In this document: positions 125 to 63,900 of the stretch, one piece after another | Layout of the letters: every line of letters starts with the position of its first letter | Position numbering within the stretch: position 1 is the first letter of the stretch | DNA from: Taeniopygia guttata | Lineage: Eukaryota > Chordata > Aves > Passeriformes > Estrildidae | Assembly (NCBI RefSeq): GCF_048771995.1 | Contig: NC_133059.1 | Location: 3,585,001 to 3,649,000, forward strand | Direction: 5' to 3' | Length of the DNA: 64,000 bases | Notes under the pieces: model-generated | What the model was told of the DNA's origin: nothing | The model's input: only the letters and a program-made list of their open reading frames with translations | Databases searched by the model: none | Made by a program: the position numbers and the translations under genes

Positions 125-217
125 CTCCTGGTACTTCTCCAGGGCCACGCTGGTCTCAGCCCCGTCCTGGGTCTCGATGAAGAGGAGTTTGTTCCTCTGG
201 ATGTTCTCCAGGATGCC
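125..217 (-). CDS. ERCC2: ERCC2 exon 18
   Basis: It encodes residues 554-584 ([19 protein letters not shown] onward), phase 0 at both ends. It is the last ERCC2 exon in the window. Two copies of its 5' part lie just upstream at 357-410 and 536-599. Confidence 0.95.
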
Positions 218-3200
218 CTGGGGGAGATTTTGGGGGGATTTTGGGGGGATTTTGGGCAGATTTTGGGGGTCCTGGGGTGGGTTTGGGGTGGTTATTTGGG
301 GTTCTGGGGGGGTTTTGGAGTGGATTTTTGGGGTCTCAGGGGGGTTTTTGGGGGTTCTGGGTCTCGATGAAGAGGAGTTTGTTCCTCTGGATGTTCTCCA
401 GGATGCCCTGGAGGGAATTTTGGGGGGATTTTGGGGGATTTTGGGGGGATTTGGGGAGATTTTGGGGGTCCTGGGGTGGGTTTGGGGCGGTTATTTGGGG
501 TTCTGGGGGGGTTTTGGGGTGGATTTTTGGGGTCTCAGCCCCGTCCTGGGTCTCGATGAAGAGGAGTTTGTTCCTCTGGATGTTCTCCAGGATGCCCTGG
601 GGGGGATTTTGGGGAAATTTGGGGGGATTTTGGGGAATTTTGGGGGGATTTGGGGGATTTTGGGGCTCCTGGGGCAGTTTTGGGGGTCTCAGGGGCAGTT
701 TTGGGGTATTTTTGGGGGTCTCAAGGGGGGTTTTTGGGGCAGTTTTGGGGTATTTTTAGGGGCATTTTCGGGGTATTTTGCATATTTTTGGGGCAATTTT
801 GGGGATTTTGAGGAATTTTTTGGAGTATTTTTGGGGGGATTTTTGGGGGGATTTTTGGTTCTATTTTTGGGTGTTTTGTCGGCATTTTTGGGGGTATTTT
901 TGGGGCGATTTGAGGGTATTTTTTAAGGTATTTTTTGGGTATTTTAGGGGTGATTTTGGGGGGATTTCTGGGGGGAATTTGGGATATTTTTGGGGTGATT
1001 TGAGGCTATTTTTGGGGCAATTATTGGTTATGTTTTTGGGTATTTCAGGGGTGATTTGGGGGTATTTTTTAAGGTATTTTTTGAGTATTTTAGGGGTGAT
1101 TTTGTGGGGGAATTTGGGGTATTTTGGGGGGAATTTGGGGTATTTTTGGGACGATTCGGGGGTATTTTTGGGGCAATTTTTGGCTATGTTTTTGGGTGTT
1201 TTTGGGGCGTTTTTGGGGTGTTTTTGGGGTCCCACCTGCTCGTACCACGAGGCCACGGTGCTCTCCAGGTAAACGTAACTGGTGAAAAACGCCACGAGGC
1301 CGTCGGGGACCACGGCCGAGAGCTCCAGGAGCAGCTGCCCGTAATTCCGGGTCACCGCTGGATTTTGGGGGAGATTTGGGCTTATTTGGGACCCCAAAAA
1401 TCCCAACATTTCTAAAATCCCAAAAATCCCCCCAGAAATCCCTCAAAAAACTCAAAAATTCCCCAAAAAAACCCCAAAAATCCCCCCAAAATCCCTCCCC
1501 AGAGCTCCAGGAGCAGCTGCCCCTAATTTCGGGTCACTGCTGGATTTTGGGGGGATTTGGGGTTATTGGGACCCCCAAAAAAACTCCAAAACTGCCAAAA
1601 ATCCCAGAAATCTGAAAGACCCCAAAATTCCCTCAAAAAAACCCAAAAAAAACCCCAAAATCCCCAAATTTCCCCCAGCCCCAATGATGTCCTCGCAGAT
1701 CTCAAATTTGGAGATCACGGTCACCCCAAAACATCCAAAATTCCCCCAAAATCCCCCCCAAAAAACCCCAAAATCCCTCTGAGACCCCTCCCCAAAATCC
1801 CCCAGACCCCAAAAACCCCAAAATCCTCAAATTTCCCCCCAAAAATCCCAAAATTTCCCCCAAATTTCCCCCAGCCCCAATGATGTCCTCGCAGATCTCA
1901 AATTTGGAGATCACGGTCACCCCAAAACCTCCAAAATTCCCCCAAAATCCCCCCAAAAAACCCCAAAATCCCTCTGAGACCCCTCCCCAAAATCCCCCAG
2001 ACCCCAAAAACCCCAAAATCCTCAAATTTCCCCCCAAAAATCCCAAAATTCCCCCAAATTTCACCCAGTCCCACCAATGTTCTCAAAGGTCTCAAATTTG
2101 GAGCTCACGGTCACCCCAAAACCCCCCAAAAAAACCCAAAATCCCCCCAAAAAATCCCAAAATCCCTCTGAGACCCCTCCCCAAAATCCCCCAGACCCCA
2201 AAAGCCCCAAATTTCTCCAAAAAACCCCAAATTTCCCCCAAAAATCCCCACCAATGTCCTCGCGGGTCTCGAATTTGGAGCTCATGGCCACTTGGTCGTT
2301 GCCTCTTCCCACGATCTGGGGGGAAAAAAAGGGGGGGGACCCCCAAAAAATCCCACTGGAACCCCCCAAAAAATCCCTCAGGACCCCCCCAAAAATCCCA
2401 CCAGGACCCCCCAAAAAATCCCACCGAGACCCCCCAAAAAAATCCCACCGAGACCCCCCAAAAATCCCACCAGGACCCCCCAAAATATCCCACCAGGACC
2501 CCCCCAAAAATCCCACCAGGAGCCCCCAAAAATCCCACCAGGACCCCCAAAAAATCCCACCGGGACCCCCCCCAAAAAATCCCACCGAGACCCCCCAAAA
2601 AATCCCACCAGGACCCCCAAAAAATCCCACCGGGACCCCCCCCAAAAAATCCCACCGAGACCCCCCAAAAAATCCCACCAGGACCCCCAAAAAATCCCAT
2701 CGGGACCCCCCAAAAATCCCACCAGGACCCCCCAAAAAATCCCACCAGGACCCCCCCCAAAAATCCACCAGGACCCCCAAAAAATCCCACCAGGACCCCC
2801 CCCAAAAATCCCACCAGGAGCCCCAAAAATCCCTCAGGACCCCCCAAAAAATCCCACCGGGACCCCCCAAAAATCCCTCAGGACCCCCCAAAAATCCCTC
2901 AGGACCCCCCAAAAAATCCCACCGAGACCCCCCAAAAAATCCCTCAGGACCCCCCAAAAATCCCACCGAGACCCCCCCAAAAATCCCACCGGGATCCCCC
3001 AAAAACTCCCTCCAGGACCCCCCCAAAAAATTCCTCAGGACCCCCCCAAAAAATCCCACAGAGACCCCCAAAAATCCCACCGAGACCCCCCAAAAATCCC
3101 ACCGGGACCCCCCAAAAAATCCCACCGGGACCCCCCCAAAAAGTCCCTCAGGACCCCCAAAAATCCCTCAGGACCCCCCAAAAAATCCCACTGAGACCCC

Positions 3201-60900: not shown

Positions 60901-63900
60901 GGGGAGACCCCAAAAAAGGGGATCCCAAAAAGGGGGATCCCAAAAAAGGGGGATCCCAAAAAGGGGGATCCCAAATCCCTCCGTGAGCATGGGGAGACCC
61001 CAAAAAAGGGAGATCCCAAAAAAGGGGGATCCCAAAAAAGGGGGAATCTCAAATCCGCTGGGATCCCAAAAAATTTGGGAGTCAGATGTGGGGTGACCCC
61101 GAAATTTGGGATCCCAGTTTGGGGGAATCCCTAAGGGTGGGATCCCAAATTCACTGGGGGGAACCCCAAATGAGGGGATCCCAAAAAATCGGGGATGCAG
61201 ACGTGGGGTGACCCCGAACTTTGGGATCCCAGGTTGGGGGAAACCTCAATATGGGGGTGACCCCGAAATTTGGGATCTCGGTTTGGGGGCACCCTGAAAT
61301 TTGGGATTCCAATTTGGGGGAAACCTCAATATGGGAAGGACCCCCCCCCCAAAATGGGAGACCCTCAATACTGAGGGGATCCCAAATGTGGGACCCCCAA
61401 ATCTGTGGGGATTTCAGTGGGGTGACCCCGAAATTGGGGATCTCGACAAGGGGTGACCCCCAATGGGGAGTGGGACCCTAAAATTGGGGACCCCAAAATC
61501 AGGGGAGTCCTCAATTTGGGGGGAGCCCACCGTGAGGGGGACCCCGACAGGAGGGGGGGTCCAAGGCACGGTGCACCCCAAAATGAGGGGGTGCAAAGCA
61601 CAGGAGACCCCAACACGGGGGACCCCAAAACAAGGGGGGAGACCCCAAAACAAGGGGGAGACCCCAAAATAAAGAGGAGACCCCAAAACAACGGGGCAGC
61701 GATGCACAAGGAGCTGTATCTGCACCGTGGAGCCCACGGGGGTTTTTTATGGGGCACGAGGTGGTTTTTTGGGGGGTCCAGGAGGCCTCAGGGGGTTTTG
61801 GGGTCCCCTCCTTGACCCCTCCCCCCCGTGCCCCCCAAGTCCTCTCAGGGTGGGGGTCACCGGACGCTGCTCTACGGCCACGCCATCCTGCTGAGGCACT
61901 CGCACAGCGGCATGGTGAGTTTGGGGCGGTTTGGGGGGATTTTGGGGGTGCCACGAGGGCTTTGGGGGGCTCGGGGGGCTCGGGGGGGTTTGGGGTGCTC
62001 GGGGGGATTTGGGGACCCCCATAACCGCGTGTCCCCCCAGTACCTGAGCTGCCTGACCACCTCCCGCTCGGTGACCGACAAGCTGGCCTTCGACGTGGGG
62101 CTGCAGAAGGACGCCGCAGGTAAAGGTGGGGGGACCCCGGGGGTTTTGGGGTGGTTTTGGGGGGTTTTGGGGTGTTTTTGGGTGTTTTTGGGGGTTTTTG
62201 GGGTGCTGATTTGGGGTGTTCCCCCCTCCCCAGGTGAGGCGTGCTGGTGGACGATGCACCCGGCGTCCAAGCAGCGCTCGGAGGGGGAGAAGGTTCGGGT
62301 GGGAGACGACCTGATCCTGGTCAGCGTGTCCTCAGAGAGATACCTGGTGAGAGCTGGGACACCTGGGGACACCTGGGACACCTGGGGACACTGGGGACAC
62401 CTGGGGACAGGTGGGGACATGGGGGGACACGGGGATCCCCTGAGCTGATCCTGGTCAGCGTGTCCTCAGAGAGATACCTGGTGAGACCTGGGACACCTGG
62501 GACACCTGGGGACACCTGGGGACACCTGGGACACCTGGGACACCTGGGGACATGGGGGACACCTGGGGACACCTGGGGACACCTGGGACACCTGGGGACA
62601 CCTGGGGACACCTGGGACACCTGGGGACACCTGGGGACACCTGGGACACCTGGGGACACCTGTGTCACCTGTGTCACCCCCCCATGTCCCACCTGTCCCA
62701 GCACCTCTCCACGGCCTCTGGGGAGCTCCAGGTGGACGCCTCCTTCATGCAGACCCTGTGGAACATGAACCCCATCTGCTCGGGCTCCGAGGAAGGTGCT
62801 GACACCTGAGGCACCCCAAATTTTGGGTGGGGGTGGGGGGGTCCTTTGGGGTGTCCCTGACACCCCCCCCCACCCCAAATGTCCCCTCAGGTTTTGTCAC
62901 CGGCGGCCACGTCCTGCGCCTGTTCCACGGCCACATGGACGAGTGCCTGACCCCCACGGCCCCCGAGCAGGGCGAGGAGCGCAGGTGGGGCTGTCCCCAC
63001 TTTGTCCCCCAAATTTGGGGTTGGGGGACACGCGGGGTGACCGTGACCCCCTCCCCAACTCTGTCACCCCCCCAGCAGCGTTGTCAACTACGAGGGCGGC
63101 GCCGTGTGCGCCCACGCCCGGTCCCTGTGGCGCCTGGAGCCCCTGCGCATCAGGTAGGGGACACGGGGGGACACGGGGGGACACTCTGTGGGGTGGCCCC
63201 AAGTGGGTCTGGGGTCCTGGAGTGTCCCCAAGCTGTGTCCCTGTGTGGGTGTGTCCTGTCCTGGTGTCACCTGCTGGCGTCTCCTGGTGTCCCCACAGGT
63301 CTGCGTGTCCTCAGCCTGTGTCCCCTGTGCCCCCTGTGCCACCCCATGGCCCATCCCTGTGTCCCCTGTGTCCCCTGTGTCCCCTGTGCCACCCCACCTC
63401 TCTCAGCCTGTGTCCCCTGTGTCCCCCCATGATCCATCCCTGTGTCCCCTGTGTCCCCTGTGCCACCCCACCTCTCTCAGCCTGTGTCTTCTGTGTCCCC
63501 CCATGACCCATCCCTGTGTCCCCTGTGTCCCGTGTGTCCCCTGTGCCACCCCATGTCGCTGTGACGCATCTGTGTGTCCTCAGCCTGTGTCCCCTGTGTC
63601 CTCTGTGTCCCCCCATGACCCATCCCTGTGTCCCCTGTGTCCCCTGTGTCCCCCCATGACCCATCCCTGTGTCCCCTGTGTCCCCCCATGTCGCTGTGAC
63701 ATGTCTGGGTGTCCTCAGCCTGTGTCCCCTGTGTCCCCCAATGTCCCCATGACCCATCCCTGTGTCCCCATGACCCATCCCCGTGTCCCCCAATGTCCTC
63801 ATGACCCACCCCAATGTCCCCACGTCCCCTCCCCGTGTCCCCATGACCCATCTCTGTGTCCCCATGACCCATCCCTGTGTCCCCATGACCCATCCCTGTG

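Follow-up and report, generated by a model that had tools for sequence, protein, structure and literature searches.

The 64,000-nucleotide window analysed here, from contig NC_133059.1 of the zebra finch (Taeniopygia guttata), carries ERCC2 and C19orf47 on the minus strand and PLD3 and the start of RYR1 on the plus strand. Introns of these four genes contain 56 partial copies of the edges of adjacent exons together with the neighbouring splice site, most of them arranged in tandem arrays. These copies very probably (about 0.9) result from exon stuttering, or sequence stuttering, as described on the dot chromosomes of chicken (Hron et al. 2026, Genome Biol Evol evag038, PMC12954441), a process of the same kind as the mirage minisatellites of amphioxus (PMC3087553, PMC3902484). 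The phenomenon is therefore already published, and the songbird case is a new example of it.

The pattern is real, as confirmed by two screens of the whole window. The junction-centred screen, which also catches short copies, compared 77 splice junctions with the rest of the window on both strands, 50 dinucleotide shuffles serving as the control. It found the 56 copies in 17 families: 47 copies in ERCC2, four in C19orf47, two in PLD3 and three in RYR1, exactly the counts given in an earlier note made from this sequence. All but one of them (55/56) score above the shuffle maximum of 35.6 bits, the exception being a C19orf47 copy at 33 bits. All are in sense and within the adjacent intron; 52 lie within an array detected by Tandem Repeats Finder (TRF), 51 of them in an array with a period of at least 60, and the units are roughly regularly spaced in the eight families having three or more copies. 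The copied part of the exon measures 13-97 nt, close to the 20-100 bases of the earlier note but reaching shorter lengths. Nine families derive from acceptor edges and eight from donor edges, and the splice dinucleotide is intact in 53 of the 56 copies (AG in 27/27 acceptor copies, GT in 26/29 donor copies). In the exon-only screen, 55 matches score higher than any obtained with 50 dinucleotide shuffles (maximum of 35.6 bits); eight of these are low-complexity (CTC)n matches of PLD3 exon 3 with RYR1 and were set aside. The remaining 47 are sense matches to an exon edge, found within the adjacent intron and on the side expected, 44 of them exactly at the border and three within two bases of it; none of these 47 matches in the window is a copy of a whole exon or of an internal fragment. 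Three further junction matches, one of them antisense, are distal and, at 26-28 bits, do not exceed the scores of the shuffles. The 35 weaker matches (22-26 bits) are also all distal, none being in the adjacent intron, and since about 21 are expected per shuffled window, they look like noise.

The copies obey a strict polarity. All 27 acceptor-edge copies lie upstream of their exon and all 29 donor-edge copies lie downstream, so that the side rule is kept in 17 of 17 families (2^-17 if sides were random). This agrees with the exceptionless polarity previously claimed, and no random placement was found in the window. Polarity is, however, no independent law: duplication of a block that includes a single junction leaves the complete exon on one side and puts the partial copy on the intron side, and the rule is the geometric necessity of such an event. 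It is thus strong evidence for local tandem duplication as opposed to dispersed copying. Duplicated blocks covering a whole exon or lying within an exon would alter the mRNA, and their absence is what selection would presumably produce. Furthermore, four introns hold both kinds of decoy splice sites; among their 30 donor-acceptor pairs, the donor comes first in 30. Since decoy donors precede decoy acceptors within the intron, two decoys cannot define a pseudo-exon.

ERCC2, whose copies occupy nine of its 17 introns, hosts 13 of the families, all on the minus strand. Two arrays flank exon 12: its 3' edge is present in 12 copies at 6270..7311 (unit of 78-101 bp, donor GT lost in one of the 12) and its 5' edge in four copies at 7661..8268 (unit of 178-200 bp). 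Exon 11 is similarly bordered by four copies of its 3' edge (8626..9228) and eight copies of its 5' edge (9670..11016, unit of 173-207 bp). The other 5' edges that were copied are those of exon 18 (125-217), with two copies located upstream of it at 354-414 and 531-603 (354..603), exon 17 (one copy, 1498..1547), exon 8 (one copy, 13966..14030), exon 6 (four copies, 15920..16343) and exon 2 (one copy, 19400..19434). The other 3' edges are those of exon 16 (three copies, 1679..2114, with the donor GT lost in two), exon 14 (two copies, 4679..4882), exon 7 (three copies, 14161..14503) and exon 5 (two copies, 16427..16521). On the same strand, the 5' edge of the C19orf47 exon encoding the SAM domain (26267-26381) has four short copies at 26516..26860, three of them above the shuffle maximum. 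The plus-strand families derive from the 3' edge of PLD3 exon 4 (two copies with about 100 exon bases each, 33392..33846), the 5' edge of RYR1 exon 2 (two copies, 57714..57928) and the 3' edge of RYR1 exon 6 (one copy, 62442..62486). Fourteen families were found by both screens; those of ERCC2 exons 14 and 5 and of C19orf47 come from the junction screen.

The inner breakpoint, i.e. the exon position at which the copy ends, is mostly constant within a family. It is one identical position in nine of the 13 families with two or more copies, for instance 46 nt in 8/8 copies of the exon 11 5' edge, 40 nt in 4/4 copies of the exon 12 5' edge and 27 nt in 3/3 copies of the exon 7 3' edge. It varies by only 2 nt for the exon 12 3' edge. 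For the exon 11 3' edge, the automatic extents are 38, 32, 38 and 62, but inspection of the aligned copies indicates a single fusion point, three of the four having lost about 9 nt. Hence, most families appear to go back to one junction-spanning event that was then amplified as an array, which would make roughly 20 founding events rather than 56. Tandem duplication across exon-intron junctions, as proposed in the earlier note, fits copies that are local, in sense, arrayed and provided with their splice site; its repetition at the same junction is doubtful given the mostly single inner breakpoint. Mean unit divergence ranges from 8 to 25% across eight families, the copies differing by both substitutions and indels, and shows no significant relation to distance along the array in these eight families (Mantel coefficients of -0.08 to 0.86, P of 0.085 to 0.71). 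In the family of the exon 11 5' edge, the unit containing the real edge is nearest to copy 7 (divergence of 0.06), copies 1-3 being at 0.22-0.25; in that of the exon 12 3' edge, it is nearest to copies 3 and 7. Outward growth from the exon edge, with the nearest copy being the youngest, consequently does not hold as a general rule, and stepwise copying from the exon fits less well than unequal exchange or duplication of blocks within the array. The periods of the intronic units show no sign of a frame constraint (17 of 42 are multiples of 3, P=0.33).

Several observations sit less comfortably with single junction-spanning duplications amplified as minisatellites. Inner breakpoints differ in the families of ERCC2 exon 6 (28, 31 and 32 nt) and exon 18 (51 and 66 nt), where some re-seeding or later trimming is possible. 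In two of eight families (exon 12 5' edge and exon 16 3' edge), the copy most similar to the unit with the real edge is the one next to it, a pattern predicted by stepwise growth from the exon. The one-copy families (ERCC2 exons 2, 8 and 17 and RYR1 exon 6) could be simple one-off duplications. Moreover, microhomology at the inner breakpoints is a trend only: when the exon at each breakpoint is compared with the copy-free adjacent intron, the longest exact matches add up to 94 over the 17 families, versus 82.3 (standard deviation of 7.7) at random exon positions (P=0.07). Homology-driven breakpoints are accordingly not claimed.

It had also been suggested that exon edges seed intron growth, and some property of the junction (splice-site motif, transcription or R-loops) could indeed trigger tandem growth, with introns growing from their edges. 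In favor of such privileged seeds, 17 of the 77 junctions carry copies, those of ERCC2 being spread over more than half of its introns, and the two families just mentioned show the nearest-copy pattern expected from seeding. In the chicken survey, more than 90% of the copied sources touch the exon border (PMC12954441), but a duplication spanning one junction has to do so, and this is not independent evidence. Against this idea, in six of eight families, the two largest included, the real-edge unit resembles some other copy more than the adjacent one, and inner breakpoints that are mostly constant suggest a small number of founding events. Junctions are under-represented in long-period arrays (period of at least 60). 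These arrays include 63, 28 and 53% of intronic 25-base windows in ERCC2, PLD3 and RYR1, respectively, versus 8/34, 1/18 and 1/16 of junction windows. This comparison was restricted to introns and replaces a rotation test of array coverage, which is unfair since arrays cannot cover exons. With the more sensitive BLAST copy screen, the junctions involved rise to 13/34, 1/18 and 2/16, i.e. 16 of 68 as against 28-63% of intronic points, and still stay below the intronic rate (binomial P of 0.004, 0.03 and 0.002); these tests assume independent junctions and set BLAST families against TRF cover, so that the P values are loose although the direction is clear. In addition, the stretches reaching out to the farthest exon-edge copy make up only 8,239 of the 33,216 intron bases of the three genes. 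Exon edges are thus not supported as preferred seeds of intron growth, and a privileged role for them is unlikely.

Selection on the copies as functional decoy or backup splice sites, for instance in splicing regulation or as a trigger of mRNA decay, is less probable still. The splice dinucleotide is kept in most copies, and use of 50 of 52 decoys would disrupt the reading frame or introduce a stop (the four C19orf47 decoys being left out). However, mismatches to the real site affect 72 of 1901 copied exon bases, 3 of 112 bases of the splice dinucleotides and 26 of 336 bases of the intron flank (the exon part being capped at 60 nt, and at 38 nt for the copy at 8788 because of a deletion). The dinucleotides are not significantly better conserved than the copied exon bases (P=0.80), and the decoys appear to decay neutrally, at about the rate of the copied exon bases next to them. 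The approximately twofold rate of the flank is expected if real and copied flanks both drift while the exon is constrained. The 45 unique substitutions found in copies outside C19orf47 fall 12, 14 and 19 times on codon positions 1, 2 and 3, a distribution that is descriptive since the copies are related by descent and not independent. Amphioxus mirages are, moreover, reported to leave splicing undisturbed (PMC3087553, PMC3902484). That the copies are rows of decoys that the cell must ignore, as the earlier note put it, is plausible. An assembly artefact, i.e. false tandem expansion or collapse in a region hard to sequence, is about equally improbable. Introns of this type have been reported to sequence badly (PMC6792250, PMC12954441), and the exact copy numbers given here may be wrong. 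Nevertheless, the substitutions and indels that separate the units would not arise from one locus assembled in duplicate, the ERCC2 reading frame is intact and the repeat structure of chicken PHF8 introns was verified with raw nanopore data (PMC12954441). As for dispersed copying by retroposition, gene conversion or template switching between distant sites, it is hardly credible: no support for it was found in the window, where none of the 56 copies is distal or antisense, and the only distal matches above the shuffle maximum are the eight (CTC)n, the weaker ones being in the shuffle range.

Exon stuttering of the mirage type could proceed as follows. As the introns consist almost wholly of tandem repeats (TRF arrays cover 93% of intron bases in ERCC2, 88% in PLD3 and 75% in RYR1), local duplications would arise all along them, probably through errors of replication or recombination in repetitive DNA. 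Some of these duplications, a minority, would happen to span one exon-intron junction and would leave the intact exon inside and, toward the intron, a piece of its edge that carries a splice site, hence the polarity. Such events would be tolerated, since the complete exon still has a functional site and the order of decoy donors and acceptors leaves no pseudo-exon to be defined, so that splicing is presumably normal. The unit would later be amplified or shuffled as an ordinary minisatellite, its copies decaying neutrally.

A related case, in which repeats seem to enter coding sequence, was found in C19orf47. The exon starting at 26175, which is annotated as coding, contains, at 25896..26145 (minus strand), a tandem repeat with a 9-bp base unit that would encode a D/R/Q-rich peptide; the repeat is also part of the coding sequence of two isoforms predicted for zebra finch (nr; P0121, P0122). 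All eight TRF rows of this repeat have periods that are multiples of three. The interval from EMCRAA to SLSRD has 104 residues in this sequence, as compared with 81 for P0121, 64 for the Agelaius protein, 51 for that of Haemorhous and 33 for chicken, whose protein (P0158) lacks the repeat; the repeat is thus 23 codons longer here than in the predicted zebra finch protein P0121. The last C19orf47 exon (23171-23480, minus strand) likewise bears a Ser/Cys/Ala/Arg coding repeat whose length also differs from P0121. The exon starting at 26175 might instead be a retained intron. Its repeat suggests that the same process may change proteins as well. More speculatively, stuttering on songbird dot chromosomes might be a single process that acts blindly on introns, on junctions and on coding exons, with only reading-frame selection shaping its outcome: units of any length would survive as one-junction copies of fixed polarity, those that are multiples of three would survive inside exons too, and the proteins concerned would be hypervariable in length. 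We regard this as somewhat doubtful; C19orf47 would be its clear case, against the statement of Hron et al. that no repeat block was seen crossing into an exon in chicken (PMC12954441).

ERCC2, or XPD, is an essential helicase of DNA repair and transcription. Its model has 18 exons on the minus strand (20849-125), a 584-codon open frame and 17 of 17 introns with GT-AG borders, and it matches XPD chains of the PDB over its full length (phmmer). The models of the other genes comprise ten exons for PLD3, nine for RYR1 and three for C19orf47, the last being incomplete. Gene identities were checked by the presence of the Pfam domains PLD, Ins145_P3_rec and SAM_4 and further by matches to zebra finch ERCC2 and C19orf47 proteins. 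For instance, the first 433 residues of the zebra finch XPD isoform X3 (P0049) are identical to the ERCC2 model and match the real joins of exons 1 to 13, and the other 11 residues of the isoform fit a join of exon 13 (5705-5774) to exon 16 (2252-2315). This isoform, located amid repeat-filled introns, would skip exons 14 and 15 and end early. The ERCC2 introns (218-20844) also show a strong one-sided GC skew, the sign of which often flips between neighbours (e.g. 0.88, -0.84 and 0.68 in sense), so that G-rich strands alternate along the gene. By-eye inspection of G-quadruplex cover per intron gave no obvious separation between introns with and without copies. A long proline-rich open frame between PLD3 and RYR1 (about 41046-42490, minus strand) resembles PRX (periaxin), which we presume it to be, and is followed by kilobases of CCCCAGTGTCC-type repeats (about 44580-46130). 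Finally, a possible short exon flanked by AG and GT was seen by eye at 60327-60347 (plus strand), within the long repeat-rich intron 3 of RYR1.

Tandem duplication at or across exon sequence, splice signals included, is known from other systems. Intron gain by tandem genomic duplication, e.g. in potato RdRp (PMC4974935), and repeats at exon-intron boundaries of human paralogs (PMC2812944) share this feature with the zebra finch arrays. However, those events create a new intron or change an exon, whereas here existing introns appear to lengthen.

The closest likeness is with chicken, where Hron et al. reported stuttering in 115 genes and 236 introns, 190 of the latter located on dot chromosomes of 2.5-6.8 Mb (PMC12954441); the window studied here may lie on a dot chromosome. 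In both birds, a partial exon edge with its donor or acceptor is copied in direct tandem within the adjacent intron, in introns otherwise made of tandem repeats. More than 90% of chicken sources are within one base of the exon border and the splice site is copied along (PMC12954441); here, too, sources lie at the border with their splice site, copies are in sense in the adjacent intron (56/56) and nearly all are in arrays (52/56). The copied exon part measures 20-187 nt with a median of 36 in chicken (13-97 here), for 1-44 copies per expansion (1-12 here) (PMC12954441). A main feature of the chicken system is strong intron length polymorphism, seen in nanopore data of 11 chickens, and its mechanism was only speculated upon (PMC12954441). 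The host here is a songbird, and none of the genes ERCC2, PLD3, RYR1 and C19orf47 appears by name in the main text of the chicken survey (PMC12954441). Exon stuttering is extended to a songbird with a dense example, ERCC2, whose 47 ready-made splice-site copies constitute a natural test of exon definition. Beyond the chicken survey, the count of polarity, the comparison of breakpoints, the junction and intron coverage, the donor-before-acceptor order and the decay of decoys yield statements that can be put to the test: the polarity is an effect rather than a cause, duplications show no preference for exon edges as seeds, the decoy sites evolve neutrally and decoy donors come before decoy acceptors.

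In amphioxus, mirage minisatellites are described in the globin genes BflGb6 and BflGb9, as well as in Adh3 and TnC as cited there (PMC3087553, PMC3902484). Their units span an exon-intron boundary, as do the minisatellite-like units of the nine acceptor-edge and eight donor-edge families found here, and the 150-160 bp of the globin units resemble the unit lengths in this window. Within clusters, mirages undergo concerted evolution, from which the cluster edges are excluded, and normal splicing was found undisturbed by reverse transcription PCR (PMC3087553, PMC3902484). Amphioxus is an invertebrate chordate and its mirages were reported gene by gene, not for a class of chromosomes (PMC3087553, PMC3902484). 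Hron et al. use neither the word mirage nor the word minisatellite (PMC12954441), and the two literatures appear to be unconnected. The zebra finch arrays link avian stuttering to the amphioxus mirages, a link that the chicken paper does not mention.

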